From: Zunongwangia profunda SM-A87
GTDB lineage: Bacteria > Bacteroidota > Bacteroidia > Flavobacteriales > Flavobacteriaceae
Direction: 5' to 3'
Assembly (NCBI RefSeq): GCF_000023465.1
Contig: NC_014041.1
Coordinates: 372,001 to 436,000, forward strand
Length of the DNA: 64,000 nucleotides
Below the pieces are notes generated by a model, which was not told where the DNA came from, ran no database searches, and was given only the letters and a program-made list of their open reading frames with translations. The position numbers and the translations under genes were made by a program. This document shows positions 55,262-63,855 of the stretch, one piece after another (positions within the stretch are counted from its first letter, which is position 1; the number at the start of each line of letters is the position of its first letter).

Positions 55262-56458
55262 ATGAAAAAGAATATTTTACTTCAATTATTTTGCCTCTCT
55301 TTTGTCGTGTTTAGCTGTAGTAGCGATGATGATAATGTGAGTGTTATCGAAATTCCCGCAGTAGAAAGTGCGGTGCTAGATATAGAATCTGGAGGTTCGA
55401 ATGAACCTAATCAGGTATATATCGATCTAAGTACAGAAAAGACAACTGTAGTTCGTCGTGATAGCTGGGAACTTGGTTTTATAAGTACTGAAAACCGGGT
55501 GGTTTTAAATTCGTCGATTTTAGTTTCAGCAGTAAAACTTGATGGCATTAATGATATCGATGCGGTTAGTGAGGATACTTCGTTAGTAACTCCAATGAAT
55601 TTAAAATCACTTAATCTTGCGACGTTTCAATCAGTAGATGTGAGCGTAACAACAGTAGAAGAGTTACTTGTTGGTTTACCAATAGGATATTCTATGTATG
55701 GAGATCCAGAAAACAATATATCCTTTACAGATAGCAGCATTGGAGATTTGGATGATACAGCCATAGGAGATATTGCAAACTCTGAAACTGATGCTGAGGT
55801 TTATGTGGTTTCTCTTGGAAGTGAAATCCCAAATGATCCAGCCGAACCAGGATCTGTAAATCATACTGGTGATCACCGTGGCTTTTATAAGATTAAAGTG
55901 TTTATGGATAACAATGATTATGTATTGCAGTATGCTCCCCTAGGCGAAAATTCACATTCACAAGTTGTGATCAATAAAAATGAAACGTACAATTTTACTG
56001 GTTTTAGCTTAGCAAACGGTACTGAAGTTGATGTAGAGCCAAACAAGGGAAACTGGGATATAAACTATACCAGTGTATATTCTTACTACGGAAGTATGGG
56101 GGGGATGAATGCCGGTTTAACGTATTCAGATTATGTAGTGCATAATACTTTAAACGGAGTAGGGGTTTATATGGTACTTACGGAAGAACCTGGTGAAGGA
56201 GAAGATGCAGATCCTGTAGCCACCGGAGCACCATCTTACGAAGATTTTACCTTAGACGATATAAACGAAAATAAACTTGTATTCAACGATCGCGCACTAA
56301 TCGCTAGTGGATGGCGCTCTACCAGTAATGGTGCAAAATCAGATCGTTACTATATTATAAAGGATACCGATGGTAACTTTTACAAGCTAAAATTTACCGC
56401 GTTGCTCAATGAACAAGGGGAACGCGGTTATCCTCAGATCGTCTACGATCTTTTATAA
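55262..56458 (+). CDS. hmuY: HmuY-family heme-binding lipoprotein
   Basis: A 398-residue surface lipoprotein. The lipobox is FSC (CLSFVVFSCSSDDD). It has the HmuY-type opening VYIDLSTEKTTVVRRDSWELGFISTENRVVLNSS, with the Y.DL....SW.L.F pattern, and a C-terminal half with NWDINYTSVYSYYGSMGGMNAGLTYSDYVV and ALIASGWRSTSNG, in line with the all-beta HmuY fold. It is longer than the ~216-residue Porphyromonas protein. It probably captures heme and hands it to the receptor encoded 17 bases upstream. A terminator follows. Confidence 0.9.
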   Translation: MKKNILLQLFCLSFVVFSCSSDDDNVSVIEIPAVESAVLDIESGGSNEPNQVYIDLSTEKTTVVRRDSWELGFISTENRVVLNSSILVSAVKLDGINDIDAVSEDTSLVTPMNLKSLNLATFQSVDVSVTTVEELLVGLPIGYSMYGDPENNISFTDSSIGDLDDTAIGDIANSETDAEVYVVSLGSEIPNDPAEPGSVNHTGDHRGFYKIKVFMDNNDYVLQYAPLGENSHSQVVINKNETYNFTGFSLANGTEVDVEPNKGNWDINYTSVYSYYGSMGGMNAGLTYSDYVVHNTLNGVGVYMVLTEEPGEGEDADPVATGAPSYEDFTLDDINENKLVFNDRALIASGWRSTSNGAKSDRYYIIKDTDGNFYKLKFTALLNEQGERGYPQIVYDLL

Positions 56459-56581: not shown

Positions 56582-57454
56582 ATGAAAAACTTTTTTACCA
56601 CCGTATTAATACTTTTTATTATTTGCAATCTTAAAGCACAGCAATTAAAAGCCTATGCGATTTATGATGCTGAAGGAAATGAAGTTTCCTTTCAAAAAAT
56701 GAGCGATAGTTTATCGAATTATGAGGTGGTGCTTTTTGGGGAATTTCATGATCACCCCGTGGTCCATTGGCTTCAGAAGAAACTTACTGAAAAATTATAT
56801 GCCAAAAACGCGAATCTAGTGTTAGGGGCAGAGATGTTTGAAGCCGACAATCAATTGATTCTCGATGAATACCTTCAGGATAAGATTCCGCAGAACCGTT
56901 TTGAAGAAGAAATGCGACTGTGGAATAACTATAAAACTGATTATAAGCCTTTAATTGAATTTGCCAAAACCAACAATTTACAGTTTGTGGCTACCAATGT
57001 GCCCAGGCGTTATGCATCGGTAGTTTCAAAATATGGACTGGATACCTTAAAAACCTATGCAAAAGAAGCACAATCTTACTTTGCAAAACTCCCCATAACA
57101 GTAGATACGATTACTCCCGGTTATGCTGAAATGTTTGGAATGATGAGCGCTCACGGAATGGAGGCTGACGCGATGAAGTTCGTAGAAGCACAAGCGATTA
57201 AAGATGCTACTATGGCTGAAAAGATCATTGATTATTTACCCAAAAATGGTATTTTTTTACATTACAATGGCGATTATCATAGCAAAAGTTTTGGCGGTAT
57301 TTACTGGTATTTAAAAGCAATGCAACCCGATTTAAAAATCGCGGTAATTCGTGTAGCGCAAAGCAAAAATGAATCTTTAGAGTTTATAGAAGACAAAACC
57401 GGTACCGGTAATTTTATACTTTTTATTCCAGAAGATTTTACGCGTACTTACTAA
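56582..57454 (+). CDS. chaN: ChaN-family iron/heme-regulated lipoprotein-like protein
   Basis: A 290-residue exported protein of the ChaN family (signal TTVLILFIICNLKAQQ, without a clear lipobox). Conserved landmarks are VLFGEFHDHPVVHWLQKKL, VLGAEMFEADNQLILDEYL, VATNVPRRYASVV, the metal/heme region GMMSAHGM, and HYNGDYHSKSFGG. ChaN proteins bind heme pairs and have a fold related to the erythromycin esterase group. It has its own promoter after the hmuY terminator. It is probably part of the same iron-responsive regulon. Confidence 0.9.
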   Translation: MKNFFTTVLILFIICNLKAQQLKAYAIYDAEGNEVSFQKMSDSLSNYEVVLFGEFHDHPVVHWLQKKLTEKLYAKNANLVLGAEMFEADNQLILDEYLQDKIPQNRFEEEMRLWNNYKTDYKPLIEFAKTNNLQFVATNVPRRYASVVSKYGLDTLKTYAKEAQSYFAKLPITVDTITPGYAEMFGMMSAHGMEADAMKFVEAQAIKDATMAEKIIDYLPKNGIFLHYNGDYHSKSFGGIYWYLKAMQPDLKIAVIRVAQSKNESLEFIEDKTGTGNFILFIPEDFTRTY

Positions 57455-59644: not shown

Positions 59645-60235
59645 CTAATTTTTTAAAGCACTCAGCAGATGCAGAAATTCTTTTTGAAGGGTTTGTGTTT
59701 TATCTTTAGCATACCAGGTGTGCAATTCTTTTTCAAGGGCTTCAAAATCTCTTCCTGCTGGGTTTTCTTTCCAGTCGAGTACCAGGTCATGTGCCGGTTT
59801 AGGTCTTGGTCCCCAGGTAAACAGCTCCACTCCTTTTTCAGAAAAAGCGATAAGTTTTGGTATCGATTTGCTTCCGTTAGTATGGTATTTCTCGATTAAT
59901 TCAGGATTTTCATCTCTAAGGACGATCCTTAATTCAATTTTGTCTCCGGCAGTAGCAATTTCGCCAATTACCGGTAAATTTTGTGCGCTATCTCCACACC
60001 ATGCTTCGGTAATGACATACCAAACCTGTGGCTTTTTAAGGCCGGTTACCAGGTTTTCCAATTCAGGAATCAGTTTTGTTGTTTTATTAAGCCTTTTCAT
60101 TCGGCTTAAATTCAGCTCGGTAAATTGGATAAGATTTTCGGTTTGTTTTTCACCGGAAGTCTGCTTATTATTTACCAGCTGTACCATCCATTCGTAAAAT
60201 TCGATATAACTAAATACCGGCTTTTTTACATTCAT
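59645..60235 (-). CDS. Thioredoxin-family protein with CGDS active site
   Basis: A cytosolic thioredoxin-fold protein of 196 residues. The strand/active-site region is VWYVITEAWCGDSAQNLPVI, where the usual CxxC is CGDS: the second Cys is Ser, so it is not a classical dithiol reductase. The later cis-Pro region is GSKSIPKLIAF. This CGDS subtype is common in Bacteroidota. The gene starts 11 bases after the stop of the large outer-membrane protein gene and was probably transcribed with it. Its role is unknown. Confidence 0.88.
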   Translation of the reverse strand: MNVKKPVFSYIEFYEWMVQLVNNKQTSGEKQTENLIQFTELNLSRMKRLNKTTKLIPELENLVTGLKKPQVWYVITEAWCGDSAQNLPVIGEIATAGDKIELRIVLRDENPELIEKYHTNGSKSIPKLIAFSEKGVELFTWGPRPKPAHDLVLDWKENPAGRDFEALEKELHTWYAKDKTQTLQKEFLHLLSALKN

Positions 60236-60246
60236 TTAAAAAGTTT

Positions 60247-63200
60247 TTAGAAGTTAAATCCTAGTGAGAACATTACTCTATTCCCATCTTCACTATGATA
60301 TAGCCCTAAATTTCCAGAAAGTGCATTAAATCCGTTTATAAAGATGGAACCCCCAAAGTCATTATGCCAAATATCAGAATTGTCGTCTTCCTCCCAAACG
60401 CGACCGTAATCAAAACCTAAAGTCACACCCATTCTTACAGGGATAAAATTAGTTCTGAATTTAGCGAGACCTACTCTTAAATCTGTACTTTGATAAAAAG
60501 AGGTTTTACCATTAAAACGTTCATTTCTATATCCTCTTAAGCTATGGTTACCACCTAAAGTTGCTCCATGATAAAATTCGTAATTATCGCCAAAAATCAT
60601 GTGGCTTCCAATCTTAGTGGCAAGCACGGCAATTCCACTTTCGTGTAAAGGATAATCTATAGATACAGATGGTTTCAAATACACAAATTCGTTGTTGAAT
60701 TCGTCGATGTTTGTTTTATAACCTGTCGCCAGATCAAACTGAAGTCCCCGTCTTGGGAACGCAAGCTCGTTTCCTTTGTTTTTATACTGAAAAGCTAATT
60801 CACCACCAGCATAGATCTGGTTTTCGAAAATATCATCATTACTATTAAAAAATTCACCGGTAGCTTCGTTGGCTTTGTAATCTACTTCATGAGATTCAAT
60901 CATAGGTTTGATTTCAAAATTAATTCCGCTTCCATTTCGATAGATTAAAGAAGGAGCAAAGTTCCACTGGGCAATCCCCACACGGTTATAATCTCTGTCT
61001 ACCGCATCGTCATCATAAGAGGTTTCGTTACCAAAACCAAAGAAGTTAATAGCATAATTAGGACTAGTAAAACCGGCTTCTATCCCAAAATTCCAGTTAT
61101 GAAAAATATGGGCAAACTCTCCAGAATACGTAAACTCGAATCCATTAGTTGCCGAAAAGTAAGCTGCACCAAATTTGTGTTGCGATTGAAAAGGATTATT
61201 CGCAAGGCCATAAGTGGTATAAGTATCGGAAATACCCACCTTAAATCCGGCATCCGGATCCCATCCAATGGCGGGGAATATGGTGTTGGTACTGTATTTG
61301 CGTTTATCCGGATTGTAGTTATTGATGTCGTAATCATCAACCAACCATTTACTACTATTCCCTTTTATAGTATTGTTTTTATTCTTGTAATCGTAAAGTT
61401 TTGCATTCCGGTTATTTTCAAAATCATAAGTGTCGTTATTTTCTCCCCCTATAATTTTAAGTTTAATGTAATGATCGCCTTCTCCTTCGATTTTAAAATC
61501 GTCTTTACCGTCTAGCCCATAAATCCAGATCTCTTTGGTAAGTTTTTTATCGTAAGTATGTTCGTAGACCACTTCCCCTTCAGTTTCGATAGAAAGGCTT
61601 GTTTTACCATCCGGTTTTCTGGTGATCAGGAATTTATCATCCTCCTCGGTTCCGGTGATGACCTGAAATCGATTTACATATTCATAATAAGCTTTTGCAG
61701 GTTCTAAAAGATTATCCCTGCGCTCTTTTAATGCTTTTTTAATATCGTCTATCGACTGATCCTGTACTTCTTTCGGTAAGGTTTTGAAAGCATCTTCAAT
61801 GACCTGATCTGTAAGTTGATTTTGTATAAACTTCACCTGTTTTTCCCATTCTTCCCAGGTAATATCTTTTAAAAATGCCTGATCTAAGGAATAGCCGTCA
61901 AAATTTAGCCACTTTACGTTTTTAACCCCACCTTCGAAATCCTGCATTTTTCTAAAATCTGTAATCGCCAGTCTCAGTAACTTGATAATTAAACCATCAT
62001 ATCTTGGGAATGCCTGGTCGCGGTCACGTCTTATAGGCTTATAAAGTTTAGAGCCATCTTCCTGTTCAAATTCAGAGAAACGCCATTGATCGTTATGGCG
62101 ATCCCAATCACCAATAAGCATATCGGTAAGACGTGCCTTTACCCAAGCCGATTGATCTACCTGGTACTCTTTAGAATCTCTCATATCCAGCAATAAATCG
62201 GTACTGGAAATGATATCATCTGGATTTCCGAACTTAGGATTGTCTTTGTTTTCATCGCCAGCATGAACTTCTAGCATATAAAGTTTATCCCCGTAATCTT
62301 CGTTAAAGATATTCAGATTTTTTTGCTTGGGCAGGTAATAAATTTTTGGCTCGGCATTATAGATGTTAAGGGTGTCGAGTATGGTATTTAACGCAAAAGG
62401 AGCATATGGATGTGCAGTAGTATAAAAATCCTGTACTATTCTTTCTGCAACGGTATTTTGCATATAATCTTCTACGTAGTGATTTTTTATGGCCGATTGG
62501 ATAAATCTAACCGCACTTTTTCTTAGTTCCCTTAAGGTGTATTCGTGATCCTTATCATCTTTTATACGGATAGACCTGGATTGATGCCCACCGCCTTCAG
62601 AGATGGCTACGGGATTTCCTTCTAATTTGGTTAAATCAAGTACCGGAGCTTCGATCTCTTTACTGTAGACATCGCGGTAATGTGTTCCCCAAAAGAAATT
62701 ATATAAACCGCTTTTAGATGTTTCCTCATCGGTATAAATAGAGGCCTTTTTTGTTGCCGGCCAGTTGCTGATATCGTGGTAAGAAACTTCGTCTAAGGTT
62801 GTTTGCTGTCTTTTAATCGTTGTGCTGAATAATTTTTCAGGAGTTCCGTTTTCAACTGAATAAAATTCAACTTCAGAGCTGTTATCGTCATACACCGTAA
62901 GTCTGGCGAAACCATGATCACTGGACGCAAACTGTCCGTCTTCTTCATCTGCTCTGGCTTTTTTGGTTTTTTTACCTGCAGTTCCACTAATAATTTGTGG
63001 AATTCCGTCATCTGATAAATATTGCAAATTTTGATCACTGGCAGAAACAAAAATCACATCTGGGAACATACTGGCCAGGGTTTCTAAAGTACCTCTTAAT
63101 TGCTTGCGTTGCTGGCTATAGTAATCTTCTTTTTTAAAGCCACCTGTTTTTTCAAAAAATCCTTGTTTTGTATTACTCAATACGGGATGGTGTATCGCAA

Positions 63201-63855
63201 CGATCACCGTTTTATTCTGCTCATCCTTAAGATCGTCTTTAAACTTGGTAAAAAAATCGTCACGAGTTTTAAGATCACATTTATTGTTAATATATAAATG
63301 ATTATCCCAATCCTCTAAAAACCATTGAGAATCTACCATTAGCAATTCGATATTCTCTGTGTCCAGATCTTCAATCTCTCGCACGCAACCATCATTTGGC
63401 CAAAATTCCGCTTTACTATTATCCTGGATAAACGATTCCATATCGTCTATATTCTCATGTCCGTTCTTATTCCACTCATTTTTACCTGGGGTGTAGATCA
63501 CACGTCCATTAAAATTCTCCATGGGTTCCATAAGGCTTTTTCGAAGTAATGCTTCTGCCTTTTCTCGATCTTTCTTTTTTGGAGGAAAGCCTTGTTTAGA
63601 GGTAATATTCCCTATGGCCACGAAGGTGGCTTTTTCATCCTTCTGGGACATTTCGTTTATAGCTGAAAGTACCTTTTTGGTGTAATCAGATTCATCAACC
63701 CCGGTATTTCCTGTAAAATAAAAAGTTTGTGATACTTTTCTACCAGATTGCTGCCCGTAAAAATGCGTAGTGCTTATAGCTAGTATAAAGCAAAAAGCGA
63801 AGAATATTTTTTTAAAGCTATATGCAGATTGTTGAAGTAGAAATATATTTATCAT
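60247..63855 (-). CDS. Outer-membrane fusion: MPE-like, kinase-like, barrel
   Basis: A 1202-residue exported protein with a signal peptide (KKIFFAFCFILAISTTHFYGQ). Residues about 40-340 resemble metallophosphoesterases, but the metal motifs are changed: GNTG (49-52) for GDAG, GNI (82-84) for GDN, GKNEW (124-128) for GNHDW, ASDQ (272-275) for GHEH. Only HH (222-223) persists. Residues about 415-700 contain GGGHQSRSIRI, IGDWDRHNDQW (581-591) and RRDRDQAF (609-616), arranged like the catalytic loop and metal-binding DxD of HipA/CotH/Fam20-type kinases. Residues from about 870 are a BamA-like beta-barrel ending SLGFNF. It is co-transcribed with the thioredoxin-like gene. Function unknown. Confidence 0.75.
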   Translation of the reverse strand: MINIFLLQQSAYSFKKIFFAFCFILAISTTHFYGQQSGRKVSQTFYFTGNTGVDESDYTKKVLSAINEMSQKDEKATFVAIGNITSKQGFPPKKKDREKAEALLRKSLMEPMENFNGRVIYTPGKNEWNKNGHENIDDMESFIQDNSKAEFWPNDGCVREIEDLDTENIELLMVDSQWFLEDWDNHLYINNKCDLKTRDDFFTKFKDDLKDEQNKTVIVAIHHPVLSNTKQGFFEKTGGFKKEDYYSQQRKQLRGTLETLASMFPDVIFVSASDQNLQYLSDDGIPQIISGTAGKKTKKARADEEDGQFASSDHGFARLTVYDDNSSEVEFYSVENGTPEKLFSTTIKRQQTTLDEVSYHDISNWPATKKASIYTDEETSKSGLYNFFWGTHYRDVYSKEIEAPVLDLTKLEGNPVAISEGGGHQSRSIRIKDDKDHEYTLRELRKSAVRFIQSAIKNHYVEDYMQNTVAERIVQDFYTTAHPYAPFALNTILDTLNIYNAEPKIYYLPKQKNLNIFNEDYGDKLYMLEVHAGDENKDNPKFGNPDDIISSTDLLLDMRDSKEYQVDQSAWVKARLTDMLIGDWDRHNDQWRFSEFEQEDGSKLYKPIRRDRDQAFPRYDGLIIKLLRLAITDFRKMQDFEGGVKNVKWLNFDGYSLDQAFLKDITWEEWEKQVKFIQNQLTDQVIEDAFKTLPKEVQDQSIDDIKKALKERRDNLLEPAKAYYEYVNRFQVITGTEEDDKFLITRKPDGKTSLSIETEGEVVYEHTYDKKLTKEIWIYGLDGKDDFKIEGEGDHYIKLKIIGGENNDTYDFENNRNAKLYDYKNKNNTIKGNSSKWLVDDYDINNYNPDKRKYSTNTIFPAIGWDPDAGFKVGISDTYTTYGLANNPFQSQHKFGAAYFSATNGFEFTYSGEFAHIFHNWNFGIEAGFTSPNYAINFFGFGNETSYDDDAVDRDYNRVGIAQWNFAPSLIYRNGSGINFEIKPMIESHEVDYKANEATGEFFNSNDDIFENQIYAGGELAFQYKNKGNELAFPRRGLQFDLATGYKTNIDEFNNEFVYLKPSVSIDYPLHESGIAVLATKIGSHMIFGDNYEFYHGATLGGNHSLRGYRNERFNGKTSFYQSTDLRVGLAKFRTNFIPVRMGVTLGFDYGRVWEEDDNSDIWHNDFGGSIFINGFNALSGNLGLYHSEDGNRVMFSLGFNF

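Follow-up and report, generated by a model that had tools for sequence, protein, structure and literature searches.

The window analysed here is the whole 64,000-nucleotide stretch of the Zunongwangia profunda SM-A87 genome (family Flavobacteriaceae, phylum Bacteroidota; contig NC_014041.1, positions 372,001 to 436,000; a genome of one contig and 5.13 Mb). It contains on its minus strand an intact open reading frame (ORF) with an ATG start, encoding a protein of 1202 amino acids (aa) in which a degenerate metallophosphoesterase (MPE) domain and a kinase-like domain precede a beta-barrel. We lean slightly towards reading this protein as an outer-membrane-anchored, periplasm-facing member of a bifunctional family of the kinase/phosphatase type in Bacteroidota, acting as the kinase arm beside a paralogue. 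According to the proposed mechanism, an Omp85-type barrel would anchor the protein in the outer membrane, the kinase-like domain would most likely pass a phosphate group (or a nucleotide) on to a substrate in the envelope, and the ancestral purple-acid-phosphatase-like domain would remove the transferred group. The phosphatase site of the window copy would have decayed, and because of this decay the protein would serve as the kinase arm next to a paralogue with both sites. A narrower proposal is held more tentatively and is doubtful: that the family is an undescribed one of Bacteroidota with both activities directed at the same periplasmic envelope substrate, that these have been repeatedly divided between duplicates, often neighbours, and that the window protein serves solely as the kinase arm beside the bifunctional paralogue.

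Conservation of the kinase-like and phosphoesterase sites

Close homologues were compared in two sets of 121 rows, one made of the window protein and 120 listed matches, one of them the window protein itself (the best-scoring 120 of 1034), the other of the paralogue and 120 matches (the best-scoring 120 of 4092). The paralogue is a second full-length copy in the same genome (G000:C1 1610308-1614030, L012:6315-10034; G and L numbers denote genomes and loci), 38% identical to the window protein, in which the kinase motifs and the full set of five MPE motifs are retained behind a lipobox-like N-terminus. Among the matches listed, the nearest named relative is a Zunongwangia sp. HRR-M8 protein (84% identity).

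The five residues D585, R586, H587, D611 and D613 are invariant in 242/242 rows and, since they never change, the kinase-like site is constrained in both groups. G422 and G423 are likewise present in 242/242 rows (G421 in 121/121 and 111/121 of the two sets), so that the glycine loop, the catalytic Asp and the metal-binding Asp expected of a kinase fold are all conserved in the close rows. R442 and K446 are also unchanged in these rows, and E471 or D476 are candidate alphaC acid partners for the beta3 Lys position. Moreover, the predicted structure of the middle domain is bilobal, as in kinases. A first-pass annotation, made from the sequence, had proposed a kinase-like middle region; conservation, structure prediction and fold comparison agree with it, no refuting non-kinase fold was seen, and the seven motifs and four residues (D585, H587, D611 and D613) that it quoted all lie where it placed them (Table 1). 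The invariance that it expected of the four residues holds among close homologues and fails in the wider family, where degenerate versions occur in 14/175 scored proteins, in 5/24 distant ones and in a further frame, L229. Taken together, the GGG loop, R442/K446, D585, Q590, D611 and D613 form a probable nucleotide and metal site.

The N-terminal domain has the predicted fold of a metallophosphoesterase of the purple acid phosphatase kind. Four of the five metal-binding motifs are replaced, as had been annotated, GNTG, GNI, GKNEW and ASDQ standing in place of the GDGG, GDNI, GNHDW and GHEH of the paralogue, and HHP is kept; of the five motifs of an active enzyme the window copy thus retains 1/5 and the paralogue 5/5. 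Residue 50 is N in 118/121 rows nearest the window protein (1 H, 2 gaps), and the same position in the paralogue rows is D in 117/121 (4 gaps), which argues that the loss of the MPE site is fixed in a branch, beyond chance. Conservation, structure prediction and fold comparison therefore bear out the pseudo-phosphoesterase for this protein and do not extend it to the whole family, since 117/175 scored members keep the MPE site: the window protein sits in a single stable branch within a large family, and pseudo-MPE copies of that branch coexist with MPE-intact ones.

Table 1. Features of the ORF in the window, with protein residues and window positions.
Feature	Residues	Positions	Strand	Basis
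Full ORF: signal peptide, pseudo-MPE, kinase-like domain, beta-rich segment, 16-stranded barrel		60247..63855	-	
Hydrophobic export signal without lipobox Cys (segment end approximate)	1-35	63751..63855	-	Hydropathy and lipobox scan
Pseudo-metallophosphoesterase domain, purple-acid-phosphatase-like fold	38-353	62797..63744	-	
MPE motif I, degenerate, GNTG	49-52	63700..63711	-	
MPE motif II, degenerate, GNI	82-84	63604..63612	-	
MPE motif III, degenerate, GKNEW	124-128	63472..63486	-	
MPE motif IV, retained, HHP	222-224	63184..63192	-	
MPE motif V, degenerate, ASDQ	272-275	63031..63042	-	
Kinase-like domain	402-728	61672..62652	-	
Glycine-loop-like motif GGGHQSRSIRI	421-431	62563..62595	-	
Catalytic-loop-like motif GDWDRHNDQW	582-591	62083..62112	-	
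DxD metal-site-like motif RDRDQAF	610-616	62008..62028	-	
Beta-rich segment between kinase-like domain and barrel	729-852	61300..61671	-	DSSP of model
Omp85-type barrel, 16 strands	853-1202	60250..61299	-	

Separate loss of the two sites

Among 175 scored full-length proteins, both sites are kept in 103, the kinase-like site alone in 58 and the MPE site alone in 14; none lacks both. A copy was called MPE-dead with at most 2/5 motifs (none in 13 rows, one in 32 and two in 13), and one row with 4 was counted as intact; the rule for an intact kinase-like site was loosened from 3/3 motifs to 2/3 with GGH allowed, so that L201, which keeps DRH and RDRD and has SGG in its loop (KSGGHQ), is scored as intact. 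Another four rows did not have the length needed for scoring and were left out. The scored frames were picked by profile or length, kinase results from motif-picked frames being excluded as evidence, and some locus sets consist of the best-scoring copies, with loci for at most 30. A tree built by a quick method from residues 622-1202, a region that includes neither the MPE domain nor any of the three kinase motifs, requires four changes of MPE state and two of kinase state, and its starred branches force at least two for each of the MPE-dead and kinase-degenerate groups. The window protein falls in a pseudo-MPE branch with support 100 (32 rows in one tree, 31 in another), and the main kinase-degenerate branch, of 13 rows, also has support 100.

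This 13-row branch indicates how the kinase-like site decays. Among the 161 kinase-intact rows, 36 kinase-domain columns are invariant in at least 97%; the branch retains 24 of these columns, is mixed at 4 and has lost 8 (R394, G421, G423, Q425, H587, Q590, D611 and D620). Six of the eight lost columns fall in the three kinase motifs, and because motif residues up to 190 positions apart decay together, the existence of one functional site is supported; from the loss of the glycine loop, H587, Q590 and D611, the kinase site of the branch is presumably dead.

The degenerate copies do not stand alone in their genomes. All 14 kinase-degenerate copies share their genome with an MPE-dead, kinase-intact copy, 13 of them in the same gene cluster (L059, L096, L107 and L112 of Marixanthomonas and Aequorivita, and nine further genomes, for the 13-row branch). 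The fourteenth, L205 in genome G080, is a separate loss (D585N, H587R, R610T, G421M), and the same genome holds the MPE-dead, kinase-intact L023 elsewhere. Furthermore, 15 of the 16 genomes with a copy of the window branch have a second copy with both sites, L201 included, the sixteenth being G080. We read this pattern as that of a bifunctional ancestor whose copies have split the work, and we infer from it that the two sites would catalyse opposing reactions and that the copies would cooperate. In three genomes (L181, L182 and L185, in G101, G078 and G012) three MPE-kinase-barrel genes stand in a row, a kinase-degenerate, MPE-intact gene being flanked on both sides by MPE-dead, kinase-intact ones.

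Independent losses among rows would lead one to expect about 4.6 proteins without either site; as the rows are related, the 0 seen in 175 is a pattern, not a test. A search with the paralogue through 20 further genomes, mainly low-scoring or unread ones and many of them with weak matches, gave 15 frames, all outside the 175, that could be judged in both regions, the others being partial. Thirteen of these have both sites (including one cut before motif I and one whose barrel lies in another frame), L231 is kinase-intact with a dead MPE site, and L229 lacks both. Three barrel-sized distant relatives (L132:4898-7522, L133:4730-7312 and L142:4549-7128) have degenerate glycine loop, DRH and DxD and are without the MPE motif set; from these motifs they are possible pseudokinases. 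The absence of double loss thus holds for scored full MPE-kinase-barrel proteins, and the wider family can lose both sites (L229, L132, L133 and L142).

Such cases would also fit a non-catalytic role, with the protein helping in outer-membrane assembly or homeostasis and its MPE-like and kinase-like domains serving as binding platforms in place of POTRA domains. Either site can go, L229 and the three distant relatives have neither, the barrel is TamA/BamA-like, and the pseudo-MPE domain is itself conserved (mean pairwise identity in the pseudo-MPE group of 56%, against 60% for the barrel). We consider this role unlikely, since the kinase residues are fixed in all close rows, more strongly than a scaffold needs, both sites are lost in none of the 175 proteins, and family frames of 430-590 aa exist that are too short for a barrel.

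Membrane anchoring and the question of the phosphate donor

The beta-barrel claimed in the first-pass annotation is well founded: the sequence matches the NCBIfam model Omp85_fam (E 5e-16, 59 bits, below the model cut-off of 200), the predicted structure has the 16 strands of an Omp85 C-terminal barrel, and fold comparison places it close to TamA and BamA. In the model, residues 730-838 are nearly all strands, and a POTRA-like alternation of helices and strands does not appear just before the barrel. A hydrophobic N-terminal stretch is present in 114/116 window-group and 115/115 paralogue-group proteins scanned, and was recognised by eye in 18/24 distant proteins; for the other 6 the start shown is internal or unclear. 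Given these N-termini, the kinase-like domain seems to work outside the cytoplasm, and we infer that it faces the periplasm. The lipobox pattern distinguishes the two groups, being found in 7/116 scanned pseudo-group proteins and in 84/115 intact-group ones.

The N-terminal domains could instead be passengers taken to the cell surface by the Omp85-type barrel, as in type Vd autotransporters. A precedent exists in PlpD (type Vd), described as a fusion of a patatin enzyme with an Omp85 barrel (PMC11116518), and such an arrangement would allow an extracellular source of nucleotide. Surface passengers are nevertheless quite improbable, given the lipobox in most of the MPE-intact relatives scanned. 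Besides, the N-terminal domains of Omp85 proteins are held to be periplasmic.

Another alternative accepts that the kinase-fold domain is a real enzyme and assigns it a different donor, such as polyphosphate, pyrophosphate, a nucleotide sugar or a lipid-linked compound, or the transfer of adenosine monophosphate (AMP). Kinases are considered to require adenosine triphosphate (ATP), a compound believed to be absent beyond the inner membrane, and the family looks exported; Q590 and R442 are unusual for ATP-dependent kinases, and kinase folds with other chemistry exist, SelO being a kinase-fold protein that transfers AMP. Yet the glycine loop, the catalytic Asp and the DxD motif resemble those of the ATP-using kinases that are the best fold matches, and we regard a different chemistry as unlikely too.

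Several observations weigh against a bifunctional family with the window protein as its kinase arm. The bacterial periplasm is held to lack ATP. The beta3 Lys position is apparently occupied by Arg (R442), with K446 four residues further on, and the fifth position after the catalytic Asp is Q590, where kinases usually have Asn. Foldseek TM-scores are low by query length: 0.13-0.26 across all 50 rows, and 0.18-0.23, with root-mean-square deviations of 10.8-18.0, for the five matches at E < 0.001. D585, D613, R442 and K446 are retained in the 13-row kinase-degenerate branch, which speaks against a single site decaying as a whole. The MPE motif set was found in none of 24 frames of the two shorter size classes (one chance-like GDSI), and DRH, kept in 19/24 distant proteins, is missing from five, three of which (L132, L133 and L142) are also without DxD. 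L229 (G060:C9:61661-63610), an 840-aa frame in a 2.3-Mb Flavobacteriaceae genome, aligns from residue 453 onwards only: the N-lobe and the MPE domain are absent, and the C-lobe motifs before the barrel are degenerate. As it has neither site, it slightly weakens the case. Finally, 80 loci were fetched with the DNA patterns WDRHxD[QN]W and RDRDQ and are, except for neighbouring genes, kinase-intact by construction, and the rows are related by descent, so that the counts are not independent events.

Family breadth, known systems and gene neighbours

Matches occur in 143/199 genomes of the Flavobacteriaceae, sampled at about one genome per genus, and in 113/296 of the phylum Bacteroidota; a full-length homologue with both sites is present in Flavobacterium johnsoniae, a laboratory species (strain CI04, L080). 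The open frames are mostly of about 1200-1300, 855-950 or 430-590 aa, though not all fall in these three ranges, and from their length and C-terminal sequence we take those of 855-950 aa as kinase-barrel proteins. Kinase-like frames of 426-449 aa (L134-L137 of about 430 aa, in G154, G157, G160 and G125, and L236-L238) carry DRH and a DRDN motif, with a hydrophobic N-terminal segment in L134-L137, and their genomes also hold full-length copies. Versions of 530-590 aa are clustered at L138:5436-8775 and L139:5129-10148; two of them have GDWSRREDQW in place of GDWDRH and keep RDRD. Some copies are split over two frames (L219/L233 in G190, with one TAA inside the match; L225/L235 in G059, matched in two pieces).

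Profile searches did not connect the middle domain to known kinases: the CotH, PI3/PI4 kinase, HipA_C and Fam20C Pfam profiles gave no match at E <= 1 for the window protein and none among 17 middle domains, HMMER filters being able to drop weak matches. A Pfam search of the 17 domains gave scattered weak matches only, and a PDB search with the window protein gave nothing at E <= 1. Three PDB rows of histone deacetylase, obtained with a profile of the 17 domains at E of about 2, were taken as chance. The closest known kinases include HipA/HipT and CtkA, which are soluble, unlike the window protein; the CotH kinases of the Bacillus spore coat (12% identity), which are not known to have an outer-membrane barrel; and the type II phosphatidylinositol 4-kinases PI4KIIalpha and beta (14% identity), from which the window protein differs in being exported and bacterial, with an MPE domain and a barrel. 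For the MPE domain the closest are purple acid phosphatases and GAP50 of Plasmodium, from which the window copy departs by its four lost metal motifs. In the Omp85 superfamily, TamA/TamL and BamA are distinguished from it by its MPE-like and kinase-like domains; PlpD likewise has an enzyme domain on the barrel, of a different fold, and the window protein has two enzyme-type domains.

The Lani_1194 family (Legionella, with Flavobacteriales homologues) was rejected, as the available part of its description concerns kinase-methyltransferase proteins (PMC9758233). The available main text of an Omp85 survey (PMC4104836) has no mention of phosphoesterase, metallophos, phosphatase or kinase, and the available parts of papers on the TamL and BAM of F. 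johnsoniae (PMC12045153, PMC12611786) have none of phosphoesterase or kinase. No description of an MPE-kinase-barrel architecture was recognised in the openly licensed literature, supplements aside; as coverage was mostly of openly licensed papers, the novelty of the family is provisional.

From a genomic perspective, the paralogue stands head to head with a gene for an HD-domain protein with a PycTM (Pycsar effector) membrane domain (L012:5073-6257, minus strand). Such a gene is the divergent neighbour of 49/92 scored both-site copies with room upstream, of 10/56 MPE-dead copies and of 3/13 kinase-degenerate ones; its product is a possible functional partner and may bear on the question of the nucleotide donor. 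The pseudo-MPE clade showed no common gene neighbourhood, a weak negative as many loci have only about 1.5 kb of flank. The neighbours tadA and dxs recur only in Zunongwangia and Salegentibacter loci, except that one Maribacter locus has a weaker match to tadA. In the window, a thioredoxin-like gene (Thioredoxin_9, 59648-60235, minus strand) starts 11 bases past the stop of the ORF on the same strand and is found beside a homologue only in L014 and L043. Two exported-looking ORFs (55262-56458 and 56582-57454) recall haem-related proteins, presumably HmuY-like and ChaN-like.

If the two activities do act on a shared envelope substrate, a phosphate donor in the periplasm would be implied. The family adds enzyme-type domains to the parts known to be fused to Omp85 barrels, and the clusters with complementary single-site neighbours are natural separation-of-function mutants. 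A widespread family of kinase-fold proteins, conserved in its catalytic residues and anchored in the outer membrane, opens phosphorylation in the bacterial envelope to direct testing.

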